Below are positions 3,699 through 25,581 of a stretch of DNA of 64,000 bases, one piece after another. The stretch is from Chloroflexota bacterium (GTDB lineage: Bacteria > Chloroflexota > Anaerolineae > J102). Positions within the stretch are counted from its first letter, which is position 1. Every line of letters starts with the position of its first letter. The stretch lies in the NCBI GenBank assembly GCA_013151415.1, contig JAADII010000133.1, forward strand, positions 4,832-68,831, read 5' to 3'. A program made the position numbers and the translations under genes. A model generated the notes under the pieces. That model had not been told where the DNA came from, did no database searches, and saw only the letters and a program-made list of their open reading frames with translations.

Positions 3699-5126
3699 AT
3701 GCTACAAACCTGTCATCGCTGCGGCGCTCCTGTTTCTCAAGGCGAGGCCGTTTGTCCCAACTGCGGAGCGGCCGTGAAACCGCTTCCTTCGCATATTCGT
3801 TGTAAGCACTGTCATCGTCGCGTTTCCTCGAAACTGACGGTGTGTCCTCATTGCGGACGCCGTCTGGAGCCGTGGCAACCTTATCGCCTGTTGTTGGCCG
3901 CGCTGGTTGCGGTTTTGGCGCTTCTATGGCTGCAATTGGGCGGTCGCGTGTGGTTTGGTGAGGTCGCGTCTCGCGCCGCGGCGTTGTTGCCCGAACGCAT
4001 CATCCAGTCGCCCACGCCCCTCCCCATTGCAGAGGCGCCGGTTATCGAGGCGCCTGCTGCAAGCGCGCCTGCCTTGGAAACGCCCACGGCCACGCCCGTG
4101 ATCATTATTTTGCCTACGGCCACCGATACGCCCACCCCGTCACCCACCGATACGGCCACCCCCACGGTTACGCCCACCCCCTCGGGTAAAGGATACGTTG
4201 TCAAGCGGGGGGACACGCTTATCGGCATTGCTCAACGCTTCGATATCTCCCTGGAAGCGCTCATGAAGGCGAACAATATCGCCGATCCCGCTTCTTTGCG
4301 AGTGGGGCAGGAATTGCTCATTCCTGCGGCCACGCCCACGCCCAAACCCAGCCCCACGCTCACGCCATCTCCCAAATCGACTCCGACGCCCACATCCACG
4401 CCGACGTTGCAACCGAAGCAGACCGCGTCGCCCACTGTCAAGGCCAGCGAATCGCCCACTCGCACCGCCACATTTACGCCCACCCCGCGAGCCACGGCCA
4501 CGCCTACGGCCACAAAGGCCGTCGCTTCGGACCCGGATGTTTACATCGTGCAACCGGGCGACACGCTTTTGGCCATTGCTCAACGCGTGGGGCGAAGCGT
4601 CGAGGCCCTGATGGCTTATAACAATATCACCGATCCCACGACCTTGCGCGTGAACCAAAAGCTGAACATTCCACCGGCCAGCTACACGCCGCCCCCGCCT
4701 ACGCCCACGCCCAAACCCACGCCCAAATCCACGCCCACGCCAACGAAAAGTCCAACCCCGGCCATCACGCTGGCTGCGCCCATACTGCTCACGCCCGGCG
4801 ACAACGCCGCGTTCAAAGGTCAGGACGCGCTGATTGTTTTGGAGTGGCGGAACCCGAACGGTTTGCCCGAGGGAGTGGAAAATGTGCTTTACATCGGCGT
4901 CAAAGTCGGCCCAGAACCCGATGCGATCGATTGGCGTTTCAAAGAGCCGGTGGGCGGCGCCACGGATTTTCGCGTGCCGAGTTGGCTCTTTGGTCAGGCT
5001 CCGCAGGCGTATGGTCGCACATATGTATGGTATGTCGAGGCCGCGGTGGTCACATCCGGCGGCGATGCATTCACCTCTTCGCCCGTTTCGCCACCCAGTG
5101 AACAACGGCGTTTTGTGTGGAATTGA
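3699..5126 (+). CDS. Zinc-ribbon, TM, Thr/Pro-rich linker and two LysM domain protein
   Basis: CHRCGAPVSQGEAVCPNCGA and CKHCHRRVSSKLTVCPHCGRR ribbons; YVVKRGDTLIGIAQRF and YIVQPGDTLLAIAQRV LysM repeats. Confidence 0.88.
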   Translation: MLQTCHRCGAPVSQGEAVCPNCGAAVKPLPSHIRCKHCHRRVSSKLTVCPHCGRRLEPWQPYRLLLAALVAVLALLWLQLGGRVWFGEVASRAAALLPERIIQSPTPLPIAEAPVIEAPAASAPALETPTATPVIIILPTATDTPTPSPTDTATPTVTPTPSGKGYVVKRGDTLIGIAQRFDISLEALMKANNIADPASLRVGQELLIPAATPTPKPSPTLTPSPKSTPTPTSTPTLQPKQTASPTVKASESPTRTATFTPTPRATATPTATKAVASDPDVYIVQPGDTLLAIAQRVGRSVEALMAYNNITDPTTLRVNQKLNIPPASYTPPPPTPTPKPTPKSTPTPTKSPTPAITLAAPILLTPGDNAAFKGQDALIVLEWRNPNGLPEGVENVLYIGVKVGPEPDAIDWRFKEPVGGATDFRVPSWLFGQAPQAYGRTYVWYVEAAVVTSGGDAFTSSPVSPPSEQRRFVWN

Positions 5127-5289
5127 GCAAAGCCGCGGTTCAGCTCCTTTTGGGGGCGATGGCCAGAGGAAATTCGACGATCCTCCAAGACTCCAGACTT
5201 CCATTTCCGCTCCGCACTGGCGTTGGAAGATTCGGAGACGTTCAAATTTTGTCTTGTTCACAGGCAAACACCCCTAGCAAACACGGCTC

Positions 5290-6330
5290 ATGACTCGCAG
5301 ACTTGCCGATATTTTGGTCAGCATTGGCGAAAACGAAAAATTCAATTATCAAGCGCTGAGCAACCTTTCAGATTTGAACGCCCAAGAGATGGCGCAGTTC
5401 AAGGCCGCATGGTCGCGCTATTCGTTGGAGCGCCGACAAAAACTCATGCGCACCTTGGTCGAGTTGAGTGAAGAGCGCATCGAATACGATTATCGTCCCA
5501 TTTTTCGATGGGCTTTGCGCGACGCGGATCCCTTGGTGCGCATTTTCGCCATCGAGGGTTTGTGGGAAGACGAAAACCCCGCGCTCATTCCCATTCTGCA
5601 TCGCATGTTGCGCGAGGATGAAGAGGCCGCTGTGCGAGCGGCCGCAGCTTTGGGGTTGGGTCGTTTTGTGCAATGGCACGAATTGGGCGCGTTGGAAACC
5701 GAGTTCATCGAAGAAATCACTCAGGCGCTTTGGGATAGTTTTCAGAACGAGTCAGAATATCTGGATGTGCGGAGGCGCGCGCTCGAAGCCATCGCCACGT
5801 CCAGTCGTCCTGGCGTCGAACGTTTGATAGAGCAGGCGTTTTATATGGAAGAGATCCCCATGCGGGCCAGCGCTCTCTATGCCATGGGGCAAAACGCGGA
5901 TACGCGTTGGATCCCTTACCTGTTGCCCGAGCTGGAGCGGGTGGAGGCGGAATTGCGGCTCGAGGCCGCTCGCTCATTGGGCGAGCTGGAGGCGCGACCA
6001 GCCGTGCGCCCGCTCATTCATCTCATTGCGGTCGAGTCTGATCTCGAAGTGCGTCTGGCGGCCATTGCAGCCCTGGGCCAAATAGGCGGCGACGAAGCGC
6101 GCCGGGCGTTGGAAGCCGCGCTGGAGTGGGAGGATGAAGCCGTAGCGCAGGCGGCTGAAGACGCCTTGGACGAGCTTCATCATAGCTTGGGAAGCGATTT
6201 CGAGCTTATCGAGAGTATTTTGGGCCTGGAAGCCGACCATCCAGAAACCCTCTGGCCCGATGATTTCACCTACGACGATCCGCTGGAATCGGAGCTTCGT
6301 CGCCTGCTTAGCGAACGCGATCCCTGGTAG
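5290..6330 (+). CDS. HEAT-repeat protein
   Basis: Repeated VRAAAALGLG / LRLEAARSLGELE / VRLAAIAALGQIGGDEAR motifs. Confidence 0.85.
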   Translation: MTRRLADILVSIGENEKFNYQALSNLSDLNAQEMAQFKAAWSRYSLERRQKLMRTLVELSEERIEYDYRPIFRWALRDADPLVRIFAIEGLWEDENPALIPILHRMLREDEEAAVRAAAALGLGRFVQWHELGALETEFIEEITQALWDSFQNESEYLDVRRRALEAIATSSRPGVERLIEQAFYMEEIPMRASALYAMGQNADTRWIPYLLPELERVEAELRLEAARSLGELEARPAVRPLIHLIAVESDLEVRLAAIAALGQIGGDEARRALEAALEWEDEAVAQAAEDALDELHHSLGSDFELIESILGLEADHPETLWPDDFTYDDPLESELRRLLSERDPW

Positions 6331-7248
6331 ATGTTTCAATCTCTGGCGCAACTTTTTGTCCAGGTGCTGGCTCCGATTCTTATAATGACAGGGGCCGGGT
6401 ACGCGCTTCAGTCGCGCCTTCACCTCGACACCCGCTCCATCAGTCGTTTGGTTTTCTATATCCTGGCTCCTTGTCTGATCTATACATCGATTTTGACAAC
6501 AGAGTTCGAAAGCGGCGTCATTGGTCGCATGGTTGCATTTGCGGCCGTGAATATGATGCTTATGGGACTGACGGCCTATGCTTTAGGACGAAAATGGGGC
6601 TACAAAGGCGCATTGGGCAGCGCGTTTGTGGTCACCAACATCTTGCTCAACAATGGCAATTATGGCCTGCCATTGAACCTGTTTGCGTTTGGCGAGCAAG
6701 GGTTTGCTTACGCCGTGGTCTTGTTTATGTTCAACAGCCTGGTGGGCAGCGCCATTAGCATTTATTTGCTGGCGCGTAGTCGCAACGGAGCCGATGGTCG
6801 CCTGGCTTTACGACGCACATTGGGCGCGCCCGTCATTTGGGCCATGACTTTGGGTTTGTTGAGCCGCGTCACTGGCATTGCGCCCCAAGGCTCCTTGTTG
6901 AACATGTTGCAAATGGCGGGACGGGCGGCCATACCCGTGTTTTTGGTGGTGCTGGGCATGACGCTCACCACCACAAGAGCGCGGTTGGGCCCCAATCCCA
7001 TCACGCGCTTGACTCTTCTGCGCATGTTGGGCGGTCCTGCGCTGGCTATTCCTTTGGCCCTTTTTGTGGGTCTTTCGGGCGTGGCCTATGCGGTGGCGGT
7101 CATGCAGGCTTCCATGCCCACAGCTGTGAATTCCATCATCCTGAGCAATGAGTTCGAGGCCGCGCCCGATTTCGTGGCTGGCGCGGTCTTTTTCACGACT
7201 ATTGTGAGCGTGTTTACGTTGCCGTTGTTGTTATTTTGGTTGAAATAA
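6331..7248 (+). CDS. AEC (auxin efflux carrier) family transporter
   Basis: Multiple hydrophobic helices, NYGLPLNLFAFGEQG, MPTAVNSIILSNEF. Confidence 0.85.
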   Translation: MFQSLAQLFVQVLAPILIMTGAGYALQSRLHLDTRSISRLVFYILAPCLIYTSILTTEFESGVIGRMVAFAAVNMMLMGLTAYALGRKWGYKGALGSAFVVTNILLNNGNYGLPLNLFAFGEQGFAYAVVLFMFNSLVGSAISIYLLARSRNGADGRLALRRTLGAPVIWAMTLGLLSRVTGIAPQGSLLNMLQMAGRAAIPVFLVVLGMTLTTTRARLGPNPITRLTLLRMLGGPALAIPLALFVGLSGVAYAVAVMQASMPTAVNSIILSNEFEAAPDFVAGAVFFTTIVSVFTLPLLLFWLK

Positions 7249-17032: not shown

Positions 17033-18091
17033 TCAAAAAAATCGACGCAGCATTTGTTTGACCAGTATCCAGTTTGAGAGATTGAGTTCGCGACGCAAAC
17101 GGAGGGTTATTCGAAACTTGCGCCATGCTCCTGGGAGATTGTGTAATTTTATGTAAGCCAGCGCTCGGGCCAATTCGATCCGCCATAACAGGTCATAATA
17201 CGCACCGTATGGGCGAATGGCGTCATCAGCCTTGGCGAGCAAGGTCAAGGCCGCGTTTGGTTGACCGGTTTCGATCAGCATTTCGCCATATTTCCATTGC
17301 GTGCGCGCGACCTGACGTTGATATTGTCCCGGGTGACGGGCGAGTATTGCCAAACTTTGCCGAAAACAGGGTTCAGCTTCGGTGAAACGCCTTTGCATGC
17401 TCAAAATCTCGCCCAAATCCGCCAACGCGCCCGCCACCAAAATATCGCCATCCGCAACCTGAGCATGAGCTTCGAGCGCGGCGCGCATAGCCTGTTCCGC
17501 CTCTTCCAACCGCCCTTCGTCGCGAAGCAGCCACGCCCTCACTTGCAATGGATTCCCCCGCCAGGGATCATGCTCATCGACGTTTTGGAGGATATCGCGA
17601 ATGATATTCTGAGCTTTTTCCCGATCACCTAACGCCCGATGACATAACGCTGTCATGAACCAATTCTTTAGCGCTTCAAAGGGTTGATCCAGTTGGGTGT
17701 AAAGAGCGTAGGCTTGTTCGAACGACTCGATAGCCTCTTCATGATAGCCTTTTCTATGGAGATTATGCCCTTGCGCGCCCAAAAAATCGGCCAGGTTTTG
17801 CCAATCCTCCAGCCTCTTGGCCGATTCGATGGCTTCTCTTTCTAATCGTTGCATGGTTTGCAGGCCCGTCACCGTGTCTCGAGCCAGCAAGAAGCCAAAG
17901 AGCAAGCGCAAACGCACCACGGCTTCGTCGTCGCGTTCGCGAAGCGCCCGAGATAGCGCTGAGTCCAACTTCGACCATTCGGCTACATCGAGCCCGGTTG
18001 GCGTGAGATCGGCGCTATCCAGTTTTTGGGCGAGGAGGTGAAGCGCGTCCCAATCGATGGTCATGTCATCCTCTTGAGGCGAGAAACTCAT
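17033..18091 (-). CDS. TPR-repeat sensor partner of the upstream XRE-NTPase
   Basis: TPR-like helices (EEAIESFEQAYALYTQLDQPFEAL, ALCHRALGDREKAQN); overlaps the 18088-19719 ORF by 4 nt. Confidence 0.75.
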   Translation of the reverse strand: MSFSPQEDDMTIDWDALHLLAQKLDSADLTPTGLDVAEWSKLDSALSRALRERDDEAVVRLRLLFGFLLARDTVTGLQTMQRLEREAIESAKRLEDWQNLADFLGAQGHNLHRKGYHEEAIESFEQAYALYTQLDQPFEALKNWFMTALCHRALGDREKAQNIIRDILQNVDEHDPWRGNPLQVRAWLLRDEGRLEEAEQAMRAALEAHAQVADGDILVAGALADLGEILSMQRRFTEAEPCFRQSLAILARHPGQYQRQVARTQWKYGEMLIETGQPNAALTLLAKADDAIRPYGAYYDLLWRIELARALAYIKLHNLPGAWRKFRITLRLRRELNLSNWILVKQMLRRFF

Positions 18092-19719
18092 TGTCTGGAA
18101 ACGAATTCCGCTAAAGATGGCGTGATGGCGAAATCGCCTTGCTCTAAATCGTTGTTGACGATCAGAAACCTCTCATAAAGAAGCGTCAGGCTTTGGGGAA
18201 GCAGTTCGAGACGTCTGTCGGCCTTGAACCAACCGCGCATTGTGTCAAAAGTAATGCGATGGCCCGAGTGCGTATGATGGGCGATTCGCTGCAAAACGCG
18301 TTGGGCTGCTCGACCGGCCCGGCCCTCGGCTTGCAATTCTCGCCACGCCTGCTCATAGAGGGAATTGAGCAATGCATCTCCCAACAGCTTGGGCAGGTCA
18401 TCGAGATAGCTCCATGATAATCGGGCCACATTGCTGGCGACAATTTGCATGAGTAGGGGCATTCCGCCTGTGACCTGAATAAGGCGTTGAAGATGCGCTT
18501 CATCAAGCGAGAGGGATAAACGAGTTAGTAAGGGGTTTTCATGCCGATACCGATCGATGTGCCATCTCAGAAAGATGGCGGCGTCGCTGATATCTGTAAT
18601 GGGGCGCAAGTGAACAAGCGCGGTTTTGCCCGGATATTCCGTTTCTCGAAAAGCGCGTCGCGTCGTCACCAACGCTCGGATGTTCGGCGAAACCACAGCC
18701 GAAAGGAAGCGAACGATCTGATCGCGGGCCGCGACCGTCTCCAGATTATCGACGAAGATGATCGCTCGACGACCGTACAATCGATCGCGAATATCTCGCG
18801 TGTATTGCTTGGGGCTGATGCGCGTTTGTTGCGGCAGCCCCAATTGTTCTCGCAAGCGGTAAAAGAATCCAATAGCATCCGAATAACCCGGTTCAATGGC
18901 TTTGGGTTCGCCGAGATTCGCGTCGATGATTTTCGATTTGGCGCTGTCTCCCAGTATGACGTCCGCCGCGCCCAACTCGAAAAGGCAACGTATGATTTGC
19001 GCCGCCACCGTGCTTTTGCCCATGCCGCCATACGAAGCCAGAATGATGATGTGCGTTTCATTGCTCAATAAACGTTGCACCACATCGACATAGGCGATCG
19101 TCGAAGCCGGATGGGCGTCTCCCATCTCCAATTGGTTTTGCAGACTCACAAACGAGTTCTCTCGCTCTAACAGGCCGACAAAGTAGACGCCAAACGCGGC
19201 GGAAAGAGCCAGGGTTTGCTCTTGCAAGCGAACGGGCGCATGGCCACAATGTCTCGGAATGGCGAGCGCGGGCCTTTTTCCACGTCGAAAACCGCGTCTT
19301 AAATTGGCCCACCGCGCGGTAATCGAAAAGCGCGAAGGGCTAGATGAGGGTTCGGATGCACGGTCCTCTGGCAATGATGAGATGTCCCAATTAAGGTCGA
19401 GGGGCTTGTTGGCGCCCTTTTCGCGCGTACGCGAGCTTTGTGGTCCGATTGATGTCGCGTATCCGGCGGCGGTGAGAAGCTCGTTGATGGCCTCTGGCTC
19501 CGTAATGCCCAATGCCCTGGCAATATCGATGACTCGCTCGGGCGTTTGCGGACGCGTCTCGCCAGAAAGCCAACGGTTTGCCGTGGCCGCCGACACGCCC
19601 ACGCGGCGGGCCAACCAACTGGCCGAACGTTCGCGCGCTTCCAGATGACGTGCAAGCAGAGTGGAAAATCGAATATGATGCATTACAGGAATTGCACAAA
19701 ACTTTTGCGGCGAATGCAA
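18088..19719 (-). CDS. XRE-type HTH plus STAND/NB-ARC-like NTPase
   Basis: HTH LARRVGVSAATANRWLSGETRPQTPERVIDIARALGI; Walker A ASYGGMGKSTVAAQ; Walker B AIIFVDNLET. Likely start at the internal M at 19683 (MHHIRFSTLLARHLEARE). Confidence 0.85.
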   Translation of the reverse strand: MHSPQKFCAIPVMHHIRFSTLLARHLEARERSASWLARRVGVSAATANRWLSGETRPQTPERVIDIARALGITEPEAINELLTAAGYATSIGPQSSRTREKGANKPLDLNWDISSLPEDRASEPSSSPSRFSITARWANLRRGFRRGKRPALAIPRHCGHAPVRLQEQTLALSAAFGVYFVGLLERENSFVSLQNQLEMGDAHPASTIAYVDVVQRLLSNETHIIILASYGGMGKSTVAAQIIRCLFELGAADVILGDSAKSKIIDANLGEPKAIEPGYSDAIGFFYRLREQLGLPQQTRISPKQYTRDIRDRLYGRRAIIFVDNLETVAARDQIVRFLSAVVSPNIRALVTTRRAFRETEYPGKTALVHLRPITDISDAAIFLRWHIDRYRHENPLLTRLSLSLDEAHLQRLIQVTGGMPLLMQIVASNVARLSWSYLDDLPKLLGDALLNSLYEQAWRELQAEGRAGRAAQRVLQRIAHHTHSGHRITFDTMRGWFKADRRLELLPQSLTLLYERFLIVNNDLEQGDFAITPSLAEFVSRQ

Positions 19720-19898
19720 AGAAATAACGCGTTTAATGATCGGGGATTTCGGTTACCCTGTACGTAGATTCTCCGATGCGCAGGAGAGAATAGCATCGAT
19801 TAGGTTTGTCGGCCAGCATGCAGCGACCTTAGTCGGTCGGGATCGATCCGCCGGTGAACCTCCTCTTCTCAATCCATTGCTCGAACGGAGGTTTGCTC

Positions 19899-20093
19899 AT
19901 GAAAACGCGCTTCTGGTTCCGCGCCATGATCTTGGCGCTGTTCTTCGCCGGCGTTCTGCTGGTCCATTCCACCGCTCAATTGGTGCATCGTAGCGCTCGG
20001 GTCGATCAATCGGCTTTTGTTGTGGCCGATAGCGGCACGCCGACGCCTACGCCACAGTTAATTGACTGTGAAGATGGAACTTGCGGCGGATGA
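19899..20093 (+). CDS. Small secreted peptide precursor (64 aa)
   Basis: ATG preceded by GGAGG; Arg/Lys plus hydrophobic signal MKTRFWFRAMILALFFAGVLLVHSTAQ; C-terminus GTPTPTPQLIDCEDGTCGG. Confidence 0.6.
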   Translation: MKTRFWFRAMILALFFAGVLLVHSTAQLVHRSARVDQSAFVVADSGTPTPTPQLIDCEDGTCGG

Positions 20094-20113
20094 CGACATC
20101 CTCATTTTGGAAG

Positions 20114-20146
20114 TGAGGGGCTTCGGTTTATCTCCGGAGCCCCTCA
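20114..20146 (+). terminator. Stem-loop downstream of small peptide gene, weak U-tract
   Basis: TGAGGGGCTTCGG-tttatct-CCGGAGCCCCTCA. Confidence 0.5.
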
Positions 20147-20151
20147 TTCAT

Positions 20152-21360
20152 TCAGGGCGGCGCTTTATTCTCCTGGCCGCGAATGGCTTGTAAATGTTTG
20201 GTGATTTCGTTGAACAGGAAAGCCTGACGCGGGGTTTGCCCTGTGGCGGGGACCAACCGCAAAGCTCGTTCGAGCTGTTCAATGGCTTCATCGAGGCGGT
20301 TCTGGCGTAAGTAAACAAGTCCCAAACCGGCGATAGCATTGGCCAGCCTTTCGGCGTCCTGGAGCCGTTGAAAACTCTCGATGCCCGCGAGATAAGCCTC
20401 TTCAGCCTGCTTCCAATCGCCAAGTTCGCGATAAGCTAAGCCAAGATTGATCTGAATTAGGGCCAGATTGTGCGCATCGTACACTTGTCGAAAGATGGAA
20501 AAAGCGCTCCGATATTGTTCGATGGCCGCCGCGGGCTGATCCTGTTTTAAGAGCATATTGCCCAGGTTCATTTGGGCAATGGCGCGATTGATGGGATCAT
20601 CGATTTTCTCGAACAGCGTCATCGCTCGATGAAAGCAACGTTCGGCCTCCTCGAACGCTTGTTGCCGCGTCAATGTGGTCGCCAAATTGGCGCATCCCCA
20701 TGCTGCAAGCCGCAACAAGTCCTCTCTTTGCTGCGCAAGTTCCACGGCTTTGCGAAGATAAGACTCCGCCTTCTCCCATTGATGTTGGTCGTGATGAATC
20801 GCGCCCAAGAGCAGAAAACTGTGGGCTGTTTCCGGATCGCTTTCTCCCAGAATGTGGATAGCCTTCCACAGCAATTCCCGCGCTTTGGCAAATTCGCGCT
20901 TGCGCTTTAGCGCCGCGGCCTGGCGGGTGAGCGTTCGCGCGCGCGAACGCTCGTCGCCCAAGCGCGCGTAAAGAGTTTCGCTCCGGGAGAAATGTTCAAT
21001 GGCTTCGTCGTAGCGGCCCAGCTGATGCGCGAACACGCCCAAATAAAAGCGAATGGCCGCTTCCGTATCGATTTCATGATGTTCTTGGCTTTGCGCGAGC
21101 CCCTCGTAGAGATAAGGAAGCCAGTCGCTCCAGCGTCCGGCCCGTTCCATATGGGGGGTGACCAACAGAAGAATGCGGCTCACCGCTGGCCAGGCGTCGG
21201 GCGATTGGAGCCCATAATTCAGCAGCGCCAATGCGTGCTGAACCGCATCGTTGGCCGCGTGATCGTGAAGCCGCTCCAGGCGTCGGCGCATGTGTTCGGC
21301 CGCTCGCTGGATGTTTTGGTGAAAGATCGCGTTCGCGTCGAAAGAGGAGGCTACCGCCAT
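20152..21360 (-). CDS. TPR-repeat sensor partner of the upstream NTPase
   Basis: Multiple TPRs: YDEAIEHFSRSETLYARLGD, AIEQYRSAFSIFRQVYDAHNLALIQINLGLAYRELGDW; overlaps the NTPase ORF by 10 nt. Confidence 0.85.
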   Translation of the reverse strand: MAVASSFDANAIFHQNIQRAAEHMRRRLERLHDHAANDAVQHALALLNYGLQSPDAWPAVSRILLLVTPHMERAGRWSDWLPYLYEGLAQSQEHHEIDTEAAIRFYLGVFAHQLGRYDEAIEHFSRSETLYARLGDERSRARTLTRQAAALKRKREFAKARELLWKAIHILGESDPETAHSFLLLGAIHHDQHQWEKAESYLRKAVELAQQREDLLRLAAWGCANLATTLTRQQAFEEAERCFHRAMTLFEKIDDPINRAIAQMNLGNMLLKQDQPAAAIEQYRSAFSIFRQVYDAHNLALIQINLGLAYRELGDWKQAEEAYLAGIESFQRLQDAERLANAIAGLGLVYLRQNRLDEAIEQLERALRLVPATGQTPRQAFLFNEITKHLQAIRGQENKAPP

Positions 21361-22811
21361 TGTAAAATTTGTTCTTCCAAAAAGGCGCGCGTGAGGCTGT
21401 GAATTGTGTAATAACTCTCCCGCAGATCTCCCCGACGGTCCACCAGATTAAGATCCACCAGGCGGCGAAGCGCATCACGCGTGGTTTCTGGCGGCAGGCC
21501 AGACGCCTCTAAAATGAACGTCACATTCCCGGGGCGCGGCGCCACCAGCGGCAAGGTTAGTAGAACGGTCCTCTCTTCGCTGCTCAGTTGTTTCCATGCT
21601 CTTTGATAAATATATCGATACATTTCCTTAATGCTTTTGCCGCGCGCGGCTCGGACGTCGGCCAGGATGTCGTCCAGGGCATGATAGCGTAGTTGCCCTA
21701 GCACCAATTTGAGGGCCATAGGATTCCCGCCCACCGTTTCATATAATGCTGCAAACTCGCTCTCAGTGGCCTGTCGCCACGCGGAGATGCCGCGCAGTTC
21801 GGCTTCATAATTCGCAAGCGCTTTGGCGTCATTTTCGTCCAACTCCTGCATGCGATAATGGTATATCTCCGATTCAACAGGCAAACTCATGCGGGATGTG
21901 AGTAAAATCGGTGCGGAATTGGATAATTTGCGTAAAATCGGCAATAAAGCTTCTAGATCAGTCACCGTTTCTAAGTTATCGAACACCAAGAGGCTAGGTT
22001 TTTCCTTCAGTTGTCGTTGCAAAAGCCAAACCTGGCGTTCTAAGGTCGTCACTGGCGCGGCCGATTCCGCGTCTTCTAAAAGCTGCGTTGTCAATGCGTC
22101 CAGTAACAGGGTGGTGGAGCGCAAGGGATCAGGCAGAGGGCGAATCGCTCCATCGGTTGTAAATCGCATCATTTGGGCGCTAACCCAGCCCAAGTCGTTG
22201 ACCTGCCCATTCACGATGGCTTGTAGCGCGACCCGTTCAGCAAGGGTGGTCTTGCCTATGCCGCCCACGCCCTCGATGAGAACAATGGGACGATTTTCCC
22301 GTTCGAACAACAATTCCAGAACACGGCGAATCGCGCGGTCGAGACCAAACACTTTCCCCATAGCGCTGGGCGAGACCCGTTGAAAAAAACGAGCTTCCAG
22401 TTCTTGATAGATGCGTTTTTCCGCTTCCCACACAATTTCAGCCAACTGTCGCAGTGCAAACTGCTGTTCTCGATAGGCTGTGGATTCCCCCCAATTTCCC
22501 ACCCGGCAGGCGATGGACATTGGCTTCCCCTCGAGCAAATGAATGCACAGTAATTCGTGATGGATAGGATGGCTCCGACGCAGCTGTTCCAGCGCATCCC
22601 TTAATACATGGTTGCCGCCATCATCGCGTTCATGTTTGGCCATGGAAGCGCGAGAGGCTCTCAAGTAGGAAATGGCATCATGCCGGCCTGTGCGCGCATA
22701 TTGTTTTAACGCCTTATGAATGTCCTTTTGTAATTGTTCGATATCAATGGTTGGGGTGAAGGCGGCCAATAGAGCGTTCATGCCAAACATTGTACACGAA
22801 ATGGCGGCCAT
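21351..22811 (-). CDS. STAND/NB-ARC-like NTPase with N-terminal sigma-region-4-like HTH
   Basis: Walker A IEGVGGIGKTTLAERVA; Walker B SLLVFDNLETV; ILLTSRMSLP; N-terminal HIHLLEGKPMSIACRVGNWGESTAYREQQFALRQLA-like HTH (weaker call). Confidence 0.82.
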   Translation of the reverse strand: MAAISCTMFGMNALLAAFTPTIDIEQLQKDIHKALKQYARTGRHDAISYLRASRASMAKHERDDGGNHVLRDALEQLRRSHPIHHELLCIHLLEGKPMSIACRVGNWGESTAYREQQFALRQLAEIVWEAEKRIYQELEARFFQRVSPSAMGKVFGLDRAIRRVLELLFERENRPIVLIEGVGGIGKTTLAERVALQAIVNGQVNDLGWVSAQMMRFTTDGAIRPLPDPLRSTTLLLDALTTQLLEDAESAAPVTTLERQVWLLQRQLKEKPSLLVFDNLETVTDLEALLPILRKLSNSAPILLTSRMSLPVESEIYHYRMQELDENDAKALANYEAELRGISAWRQATESEFAALYETVGGNPMALKLVLGQLRYHALDDILADVRAARGKSIKEMYRYIYQRAWKQLSSEERTVLLTLPLVAPRPGNVTFILEASGLPPETTRDALRRLVDLNLVDRRGDLRESYYTIHSLTRAFLEEQILQWR

Positions 22812-22816
22812 TGGCG

Positions 22817-22884
22817 AGAGTTTGTGAGAGTTTGAAAGAGTTTGTGAGAGGAAATATGAAAAATTGAGAAGGCGTCAGAGTTTG
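22817..22884. repeat. Four AGAGTTTG direct repeats in 10-bp register, candidate operator
   Basis: AGAGTTTG starts at 22817, 22827, 22837 and 22877, immediately upstream of the minus-strand NTPase start. Confidence 0.6.
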
Positions 22885-22919
22885 AAATGGTGTTTCTCTG
22901 CTAGAATAGAATTGCCGAC

Positions 22920-23041
22920 GTCTTCGCGAACAATGGCTGTTCGCGAAGACCCACCACCGAATGAGTTTCTCGTTTCGGTGGGCGAGGGTGGCAGGCGTTG
23001 GTGTTTTTGGCGAGAGGGCGCCAACGTCTGCTAATTTTTTT
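22920..23041 (+). ncRNA. Candidate structured RNA: three consecutive hairpins and a T-run
   Basis: GTCTTCGCGAACA/TGTTCGCGAAGAC (13 bp); CCACCGAA/TTCGGTGG (8 bp); GCAGGCGTTGG/CCAACGTCTGC then TAATTTTTTT on the plus strand. Confidence 0.35.
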
Positions 23042-23503: not shown

Positions 23504-23516
23504 TGTTTTGGGAAAG

Positions 23517-23600
23517 TGCCGATGGAGGGATTTGAACCCCCACGGGCCTATGCCCACTGCGCCCTGAACGCAGCGCGTCTGCCAGTTCCGCCACATCGGC
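23517..23600 (-). tRNA. tRNA-Leu (anticodon CAG)
   Basis: GCCGATG/CATCGGC acceptor, anticodon arm CTGCG-TTCAGGG-CGCAG, long variable arm, GGTTCAAATCC T arm. Confidence 0.96.
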
Positions 23601-23628: not shown

Positions 23629-25317
23629 CTATTCCTGGAGTTTGTCAAACTTCAGTGTGCGCCTTTCTGAAAGCGTCACCTTTCTTTGCAACAGGTGCCA
23701 TTGAGCAAAGGTGCGGAATCGTTCAGAGGGTTCATTCAGGCGTCCGACTTCCATATTTTGCACTGCTGTGGACGCGCCGTAAGTGTAAAGCGGATAATAG
23801 AGCAAAATTCCGGGCAGTTCTTGAGCAAACACCTCTTGAAACTGATAATATAGTTGACGTCGGATTTCTTTGTCAGCCGTCACCCGCGCTTGCTCCATGG
23901 CGATATCGGCCGTGCGATTGCGCCAACCGCCATAGTTTTGCCCTTCGGGGGCAATTTGAGTCGAATGCCACAGAGGATATGGATCGGGGTCGCCGATGAA
24001 TTCCCAACTGACAATGGCGGCGCTAAAATTGCGCGGGACCAAAAAGTCGCTGACCAGGCCAGTGAAAGAAACGGGTTGCGAGATCGTCCGCACGCCGATG
24101 CGGGTCCAATCCTCGGTTATGGCTTGATTGACCAAGGTGGAGGATGGCGCGTCATCGCTGAGCAGAATCAATTCAAGTTGTTGCCCCTCTTGTTCGCGTA
24201 CGCCATCGCCATCTGAATCGATCCAACCGGCCTCTTCCAACAACGCCTTCGCGCGCGAGGGGTTGTAATCATAGGTGGGAATATCGGGATTGTAGGCCCA
24301 TGTTCCGGGCAATATGGGGCTATCGGCCTTGAGCCCTACGCCGGGTATGGTTTCTTTGAGTAAACGGTCGCGATCGATGGCATAAGCAAGGGCCTGGCGC
24401 ACGCGCACATCGCTCAGAAAGGAGGCGTTCGGTGAATCCAAATTGAGCAAGATCAGGGTGTATCCGGGCAGGGGCGAGGTGAACAATTGCAGGTTGGGCA
24501 TGGCTTCGGCTCGCGCCAGGTGTTCGGGAGGGATGCGTCTGATCCCATGCACCTCGCCAGCCTCCGCGGCCGCCAGGATGCTGGCGTAGTCGGGGAAAAA
24601 ACGGAATTCCAATGCATCGAGAAATGGCAGGGCGTCAAACGCGCGCGGATTGGGCTCCAGGCGTACATGCAAGCTGTCGATCTCCGTCACGCGGAACGGT
24701 CCGCTGCCAATGGGTTGCGTATTTAACTGCGCGCGCACCAGCTCGCGCGGGGTGTATCGTTGCCAATAGTGTTTGGGAAGAACCCCGAACCAACGAATGG
24801 TCGTGAAATCGGGAAACGCTGCAAAAGGTTCAGAGAGTTGGAATTGCACCGTGCGATCATCGATCTTTTTGGCGATGACTGTGCGCCACAGTGCGGCAAG
24901 GTCGGGCAAAACGGGCAGGTCGGGGTCCTGCATGAGCTCGACGGTGAAAAGCACATCATCCGCGGTGATGCGCAGGCCGTCATGCCAGCGCGCGTCGCTG
25001 CGCAAGGTGAAGGTGAATACATCGCTATTGGGGCCGATTTCCCAGCTTTCGGCCAAATCGGGTTGCAGCTCTCCTTGTTCATCAAATTTCAACAACCCGT
25101 TAAACACCAACGCGCAAAGGTCGCGGTCCACCTCATTGTATTGGCACAGAAGAGGATTGATATATTGAGGATTGCCCGCGACGCCCTCCACAAAAACGCC
25201 CCCACGGGCGGGGACGTATTCGGTCGTATATGAATAGGCCGCGTAACTTAAGAGGGATGCAACAAGAAGAATGCCCAAAAGGGCTAACGCGGCTTGCCAA
25301 CGAACGTGACGACTCAA
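23629..25317 (-). CDS. Peptide/oligopeptide ABC transporter substrate-binding protein (SBP family 5)
   Basis: DLAESWEIGPNSDVFTFTLRSDARWHDGLRITADDVLFTVELM; VRQALAYAIDRDRLL. Confidence 0.93.
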   Translation of the reverse strand: MSRHVRWQAALALLGILLVASLLSYAAYSYTTEYVPARGGVFVEGVAGNPQYINPLLCQYNEVDRDLCALVFNGLLKFDEQGELQPDLAESWEIGPNSDVFTFTLRSDARWHDGLRITADDVLFTVELMQDPDLPVLPDLAALWRTVIAKKIDDRTVQFQLSEPFAAFPDFTTIRWFGVLPKHYWQRYTPRELVRAQLNTQPIGSGPFRVTEIDSLHVRLEPNPRAFDALPFLDALEFRFFPDYASILAAAEAGEVHGIRRIPPEHLARAEAMPNLQLFTSPLPGYTLILLNLDSPNASFLSDVRVRQALAYAIDRDRLLKETIPGVGLKADSPILPGTWAYNPDIPTYDYNPSRAKALLEEAGWIDSDGDGVREQEGQQLELILLSDDAPSSTLVNQAITEDWTRIGVRTISQPVSFTGLVSDFLVPRNFSAAIVSWEFIGDPDPYPLWHSTQIAPEGQNYGGWRNRTADIAMEQARVTADKEIRRQLYYQFQEVFAQELPGILLYYPLYTYGASTAVQNMEVGRLNEPSERFRTFAQWHLLQRKVTLSERRTLKFDKLQE

Positions 25318-25347: not shown

Positions 25348-25581
25348 TTAGACCAAACGGGCCGCGACAAGGGAAATAATGAAGAAGAGCGCGCCCACCA
25401 CAATGGTGGCCTGATAAAGCGTTTTTTCCAGTCCGCGTCGGGTGCGATAGACCGATGTGTCGCTACCAAATACGCTGCCCGCACCGCTGGTTTGCGTTTG
25501 CAGGATGACCAATACAGAAATGACCACGCTGAGCAACAGCTGCGCTATGAGAACGAACGTTTCCATGAAAAAAGACCTCAA
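25348..25581 (-). CDS. secG: Preprotein translocase subunit SecG
   Basis: Two TMs; LLSVVISVLVILQTQTSGAGSVFGSDTSVYRTRRGLEKTLYQATIVVGALFFIISL. Confidence 0.9.
   Translation of the reverse strand: MRSFFMETFVLIAQLLLSVVISVLVILQTQTSGAGSVFGSDTSVYRTRRGLEKTLYQATIVVGALFFIISLVAARLV

Follow-up and report, generated by a model that had tools for sequence, protein, structure and literature searches.

Among described systems, those closest in design to the locus reported here are the RRNPP (RRNPPA) regulators of Bacillota (Rap-Phr, NprR-NprX, PlcR-PapR, AimR-AimP). Their signature comprises a Sec-secreted propeptide of 10–100 aa, a receptor of 250–500 aa with tetratricopeptide repeats (TPRs) to which the mature peptide binds, propeptide and receptor genes that are direct neighbours (−60 to 400 bp apart), and either a single chain joining a helix-turn-helix (HTH) to the TPRs or a Rap-type phosphatase, with close homology to known members (PMC10075063). 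Here we describe a set of three adjoining genes, encoding a STAND NTPase (NTPase1), a TPR protein (TPR1) and a small exported-type propeptide, in a 64,000-nt stretch of DNA from a Chloroflexota bacterium of the class Anaerolineae (hereafter the window; C68:4832–68831 in a draft genome of 4.5 Mb and 197 contigs). Our analysis makes it reasonably probable that this set is a peptide-receptor regulatory unit similar to RRNPP, in which the DNA-binding switch would be a separate STAND NTPase.

The unit and the RRNPP systems have much in common: a small propeptide gene, probably of Sec type (64 aa in the window, 41–96 aa in the family), adjoins, at 59 nt, the gene of a 402-aa TPR protein; the mature peptide would again be C-terminal; paralogous pairs carry different peptides; and TPR1 has profile similarity to NprR and Rap, which is TPR-generic. 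There are, however, differences: (i) the TPR chain has no HTH by Pfam, and its constant neighbour is a STAND NTPase; (ii) the peptide gene lies on the opposite strand; (iii) many peptides end in tails with two cysteines; and (iv) the hosts are Anaerolineae rather than Bacillota. Because the single-chain HTH-TPR (or Rap) architecture is lacking, we do not file the unit as an RRNPP member, although by analogy it would work like one.

Other known proteins resemble parts of the unit. MalT, AfsR and GutR share with it the (here probable) HTH-type output, the NB-ARC NTPase, a winged-helix-like part, the TPR sensor and direct repeats in the promoter, but here these parts are divided between two chains in the window and in most relatives (they are fused only in a clade such as that of L240–L242) and are partnered with an exported-type peptide gene. 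The input of MalT is maltotriose with ATP, and that of AfsR is phosphorylation. The NB-ARC-TPR proteins of the FxSxx-COOH/HaaA cyclophane RiPPs (ribosomally synthesised and post-translationally modified peptides), FxsT and HaaT, are likewise STAND-TPR proteins encoded close to a short peptide whose C-terminus is conserved; those are single chains accompanied by radical-SAM modification enzymes, and their peptides have no Sec leader, whereas no radical-SAM maturase recurs here and the NCBIfam models match far below cut-off. With NLRs, Apaf-1 and CED-4 the unit shares the predicted NTPase fold, but these have other sensor and output domains and are not split into two genes. Unlike the known anti-phage STAND proteins (Avs), it matches no defence model beyond generic P-loop and TPR hits (PADLOC).

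The unit recurs in relatives. NTPase1 and 21 relatives were aligned and the resulting profile was run on 396 Anaerolineae genomes, 82 of which contained a match (E<=1e-60); the named relatives carrying an NTPase1 homologue are metagenome-assembled genomes of Anaerolineae/Chloroflexota. About 120 loci were retrieved and the opposite strand 3' of each TPR gene was scanned for short open reading frames (ORFs), giving ORFs of 41–96 aa with hydrophobic N-termini (74 family members). They usually lie on the strand opposite to the TPR gene and directly 3' of it, in relatives mostly at a distance of −10 to +150 nt; in some clades the peptide gene is instead divergent and 5' of the NTPase gene. With a filter on the tail sequence, 51 of 101 pairs had a peptide ORF, compared with 6 of 329 control gene ends (p=5e-31); of those 6 control positives, 4 are module peptides in other arrangements. 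Since the tail filter had been chosen after inspecting the data, the association was retested without it, using only an ATG, a Shine-Dalgarno (SD) site and a hydrophobic N-terminus, on 100 loci (L159–L258) fetched after the pattern was first seen: 35 of 68 TPR ends and 4 of 130 control ends scored (p~1e-15), with codirectional peptide ORFs 3' of the TPR gene at 0 of the 68. NTPase and TPR stay paired, as neighbouring genes or as a single fused chain, and three fused chains (L240, L241 and L242) keep a convergent peptide, with the tails ACGSGHGGGC, GGIDDGGGC and ACGSGGHGGGGC. Several paralogous units with differing peptide tails occur within single genomes, including the window's own, whose second NTPase-TPR pair (L002/L059) has a 52-aa exported-type ORF at the same convergent place (L059 9792–9950); this peptide ends in FDECKENTCG and shares C-x4-C-G with the DCEDGTCGG of the window. 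A previous sequence-only reading of this DNA had proposed that split STAND NTPase and TPR genes are paired with an exported-type mini-protein, and had asked whether the small ORF is conserved in relatives and whether NTPase and TPR genes occur independently of each other: this idea withstood both tests, since an ORF of this kind occupies the corresponding position in dozens of loci, well above the control frequency, and the two larger genes stay together.

At the family level the small ORFs prove to be genuine genes. Of 73 peptide ORFs, 56 have an SD-like site in front, against 9% of random positions, and pN/pS, the ratio of non-synonymous to synonymous differences, stays under 1 in each of the 22 pairs that could be compared (range 0.05–0.81). 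The N-termini show, by hydropathy, a basic start, a hydrophobic core and frequently AxA, features that make Sec export of the propeptides likely. Among the last 20 residues, counted without the tail filter, there are two cysteines in 37 loci, none in 11 and one in 0, and this two-or-zero pattern suggests that the two cysteines are joined, in the simplest case by a disulphide. The main tail types are C-x4/5-C-G, to which the window's peptide belongs, GDCP-xn-C, AC-xn-GGGC and a cysteine-free, glycine-rich type. Tail types are clustered along the NTPase tree (matched by 0 of 200 shuffles), and this clustering, with multiple tails per genome, fits receptor-ligand specificity. The L068 precursor (1909–2199) holds three copies of a STDGDQGGG-type tail motif; repetition of a motif within the precursor is a trait of some pheromone precursors.

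NTPase1 matches NB-ARC above cut-off (Pfam, E=1e-11), and its motifs GVGGIGKTT (P-loop), DNLET and GGNPMAL are conserved in the alignment with its 21 relatives. By its P-loop, Walker B, GLPL-like motif and winged helix, and by Foldseek matches to Apaf-1 and NLRs, it belongs to the STAND NTPase superfamily; the predicted fold (AlphaFold2, AF2; pLDDT 89) is nearest to NLR resistosomes, Apaf-1 and CED-4, and AfsR (E=9e-12) and NCBIfam MalT (E=7e-7) profiles also match. Both NTPases of the window had been described as HTH-bearing, which is right for NTPase2 (HTH_31/HTH_3); in NTPase1 the Pfam search gave no HTH match, the N-terminus is a helical bundle in the model, and a Sigma70_r4_2 match to its paralogue is weak (E=0.006). 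An N-terminal HTH in NTPase1 is thus no more than likely. TPR1 is matched by many TPR models (Pfam, E down to 9e-39) and by the AfsR profile (E=6e-27), and is predicted to form a 19-helix TPR superhelix (AF2, pLDDT 95). The nearest solved folds are the TPR domains of LGN/Pins, mostly in peptide complexes, and its PDB profile matches include LGN, kinesin light chain (KLC), AfsR, NprR and Rap. Four asparagines of TPR1 (N225, N265, N305 and N341) are 60–82% conserved across 57 TPRs, the first three spaced by exactly 40 residues; in RRNPP receptors, LGN and kinesin light chain, asparagine ladders of this sort grip the backbone of the peptide.

The promoters of the NTPase genes often carry tandem direct repeats spaced by 10–11 bp. 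At least three exact copies of a 6-mer stand upstream of the NTPase in 36 of 106 loci (3.2 expected), and the best repeat lag is 10 or 11 bp in 50 of 106 NTPase promoters, compared with 6 of 106 within coding sequence. The repeat unit varies by clade (CTCACAAACT in the window, TGTCTCA in L053, CTATCCGCGAG in L045 and ACTGTCGAAAA in L056). Direct repeats phased in this way would fit a DNA-binding protein that works as an oligomer, and they hint at autoregulation.

We infer from these features the following mechanism. The small gene would encode a Sec-type precursor that is exported and cleaved to release a C-terminal peptide, whose loop would be closed between its two cysteines (C-EDGT-C-GG in the window). 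After re-import, or by some other access, the mature peptide would bind in the groove of the TPR protein, which together with the NTPase would constitute a STAND switch like MalT, AfsR or Apaf-1. On binding its ligand the switch would exchange nucleotide and oligomerise, and the oligomer would recognise, through its N-terminal HTHs, the tandem direct repeats of 10–11 bp in its own promoter region and perhaps the promoters of further target genes.

Several results weigh against this mechanism or limit its reach. About one third of the scorable NTPases have no peptide by the criteria used (36 scored as 'none'), and peptides are missing altogether from a monophyletic clade whose TPR proteins are longer; because of this clade and some other loci without a peptide, the association is strong, not universal. 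A homology search gave no close match for the peptide of the window, and the case for it rests on where it lies, its signal sequence, its SD site and the type of its tail. The asparagine ladder is a weak discriminator between peptide-bearing TPRs and the long-TPR clade (p=0.04, by a crude motif count) and does not distinguish the former from other peptide-less units, and with so weak a separation it was dropped as a marker. The promoter repeats stand before the NTPase and rarely before peptide genes, where matching copies were searched for and mostly absent. Finally, no importer or processing gene recurs beside the units in the neighbourhood survey. A linked oligopeptide transporter was considered, and the SBP_bac_5 gene at 23629–25317 is not a recurrent neighbour; permease domains abound in the genome (79 matches), and re-import by genes unlinked to the unit is possible. 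The same neighbourhoods hold, in 43 loci, a short DJ-1/PfpI-like gene (PF01965, partial) divergent before the NTPase (for example L039 2941–3402, L045 7402–7857, L171 899–1354 and L204 153–617). It is absent from the window's unit; it is possibly a fourth component.

The alternative that survives best, which we nonetheless think unlikely, is that the small gene encodes an output of the STAND regulator rather than its ligand, namely a secreted peptide of antimicrobial or RiPP-like type whose expression the regulator would control. Glycine-rich tails and tails with two cysteines do recall small bacteriocins, and fused NB-ARC-TPR proteins are known beside RiPP precursors, the NCBIfam HaaT and FxSxx-COOH models matching weakly here; but no modification, transport or immunity gene recurs near the units, the radical-SAM motif CxxxCxxC turned up in just 3 long frames across the whole set of loci, and the repeats stand at the regulator, rarely at the peptide gene. 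A RiPP cluster with its maturation enzymes was rejected, as none recurs beside the units. Less probable still is a bait for the state of the envelope or of export, in which unexported precursor in the cytosol would bind the TPR protein and signal Sec failure, with no signal between cells. The Sec-type hydrophobic N-terminus of all the peptides, the lack of a linked importer and the DJ-1/PfpI-like gene before many NTPases (its family has stress-response members) would suit a bait; conservation among near relatives of the mature tails, besides the leader, in clade-specific types would not, and a bait has no need of paired cysteines. A role against phages, with a STAND sensor and the small peptide as a membrane-active effector, seems very improbable: the NTPase is of the STAND/NLR type and PADLOC gives a generic TPR match to TPR1 (E=9e-14), yet the NTPase draws nothing but weak generic hits from the defence-system models, and on this PADLOC result a known defence system was rejected; the tails are polar and rich in cysteine and glycine, and the HTH-like N-terminus and promoter repeats indicate transcription control. 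That the small ORFs are spurious and their association an artefact of convergent gene ends, as the missing close homologue of the window's ORF might suggest, is hardly credible given the control gene ends in the same loci, the SD sites, pN/pS and the conserved tails, which exclude chance at the family level.

As a rule, the unit consists of a single NTPase-TPR pair and a single peptide. The sequence-only reading had seen two modules of one design flanking the peptide. Its five ORFs, their strands and the overlaps of 10 nt (NTPase1/TPR1) and 4 nt (NTPase2/TPR2) agree with the ORF list and sequence, the 64-aa ORF is indeed between the modules on the opposite strand and has an SD site, and the layouts are alike; the modules are not sister copies, however, their similarity being that of STAND proteins in general, and the two do not form a unit around the peptide. 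By Pfam, NTPase2 matches HTH_31 (E=9e-8), HTH_3 and, weakly, NB-ARC (E=5e-4), and TPR2 matches TPR models. A search of 150 genomes for relatives of NTPase2 returned G000 and one weak match, nothing more; on this sequence evidence module 2 (17033–19719) appears to be an orphan, and we rejected it as a conserved partner of module 1. TPR2 ends 50 nt from a convergent serine dehydratase gene, with no space for a peptide ORF. In L125, L176, L190 and L237, too, the peptide is followed by a second codirectional gene, though these second genes differ; that of L237 encodes an HTH-membrane-propeller protein (4777–6660), directly behind the unit's peptide, with an HTH 48% identical to that of NTPase2. 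The window's peptide gene is convergent with TPR1 and divergent from NTPase2, and for the latter reason the peptide may possibly be shared with NTPase2.

Table 1. Features of the locus (window coordinates)
Feature	Coordinates	Strand	Description	Evidence
NTPase1	21351..22811	-	Probable HTH (N-terminal helical region), NB-ARC/STAND NTPase, winged-helix-like C-terminus	Pfam, alignments A1/A4, AF2, Foldseek, family search
TPR1	20152..21360	-	402-aa TPR superhelix (predicted)	Pfam, AF2, PDB profile matches, Asn columns
64-aa exported-type propeptide	19899..20093	+	Tail ...LIDCEDGTCGG	ORF, same-position ORFs in relatives, tail type common with paralogue L059
Shine-Dalgarno GGAGG	19887..19891	+	7 nt before peptide ATG	Sequence; family-wide SD enrichment
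Hairpin	20110..20149	.	Between TPR1 and peptide stop codons	RNA fold
Tandem direct repeats, ~10 bp (CTCACAAACT/CTTTCAAACT)	22814..22850	.	Upstream of NTPase1	Repeat finding, pattern search
Additional copy of ~10 bp repeat	22874-22887	.	Upstream of NTPase1	
NTPase2	18088..19719	-	Xre-type HTH + STAND-like NTPase, orphan	Pfam; 150-genome search
TPR2	17033..18091	-	352-aa TPR protein	Pfam, ORF list

The features of the locus are collected in Table 1; the full peptide reads MKTRFWFRAMILALFFAGVLLVHSTAQLVHRSARVDQSAFVVADSGTPTPTPQLIDCEDGTCGG. To judge from the sequence, the probable start of NTPase1 is 22781 (MNALL..., as in L040), preceded at 7 nt by a TACAAT box, and that of NTPase2 is 19683. The hairpin that separates the stop codons of TPR1 and the peptide gene (−29.3 kcal/mol, z −3.7) is likely, as predicted, to be a shared bidirectional terminator, and a comparable inverted repeat lies 3' of the paralogue's TPR gene (L059 9730–9759). 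A perfect 13-nt inverted repeat (GTCTTCGCGAACA/TGTTCGCGAAGAC, 22920–22950) lies between a DivIC-like gene and NTPase1, and tRNA-Leu (cag) is at 23516–23600, ~700 nt upstream of NTPase1. The flanks of the unit are, on one side, this tRNA, a SecG-like ORF (25348–25581) and the SBP_bac_5 and DivIC-like genes, and on the other serine dehydratase genes.

The system is apparently undescribed as well as widespread in uncultured Anaerolineae: we found no earlier description in the literature searched, which was limited to open-licence papers, and absence there is not proof. We put forward, more tentatively than the regulatory unit itself, that these loci may form a class of their own within bacterial peptide signalling, one that is widespread in Anaerolineae and lies outside Bacillota. 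In it, exported peptides looped by two cysteines would be read by a TPR protein, which would make an NLR-like STAND ATPase assemble on helically phased repeats, and the peptide code and its receptor would diversify together. The host class is largely uncultured, and no peptide quorum sensing has been described there in the papers searched; if our reading is true, RRNPP-style communication would reach beyond Bacillota. In bacteria, STAND regulators are the relatives of NLR immune receptors and of Apaf-1. For most of them no ligand is known, whereas dozens of those found here adjoin a genetically encoded candidate. These would then be ready receptor-ligand pairs for studying how a ligand switches a STAND ATPase, and the split between NTPase and TPR protein would make sensor and motor biochemically separable.

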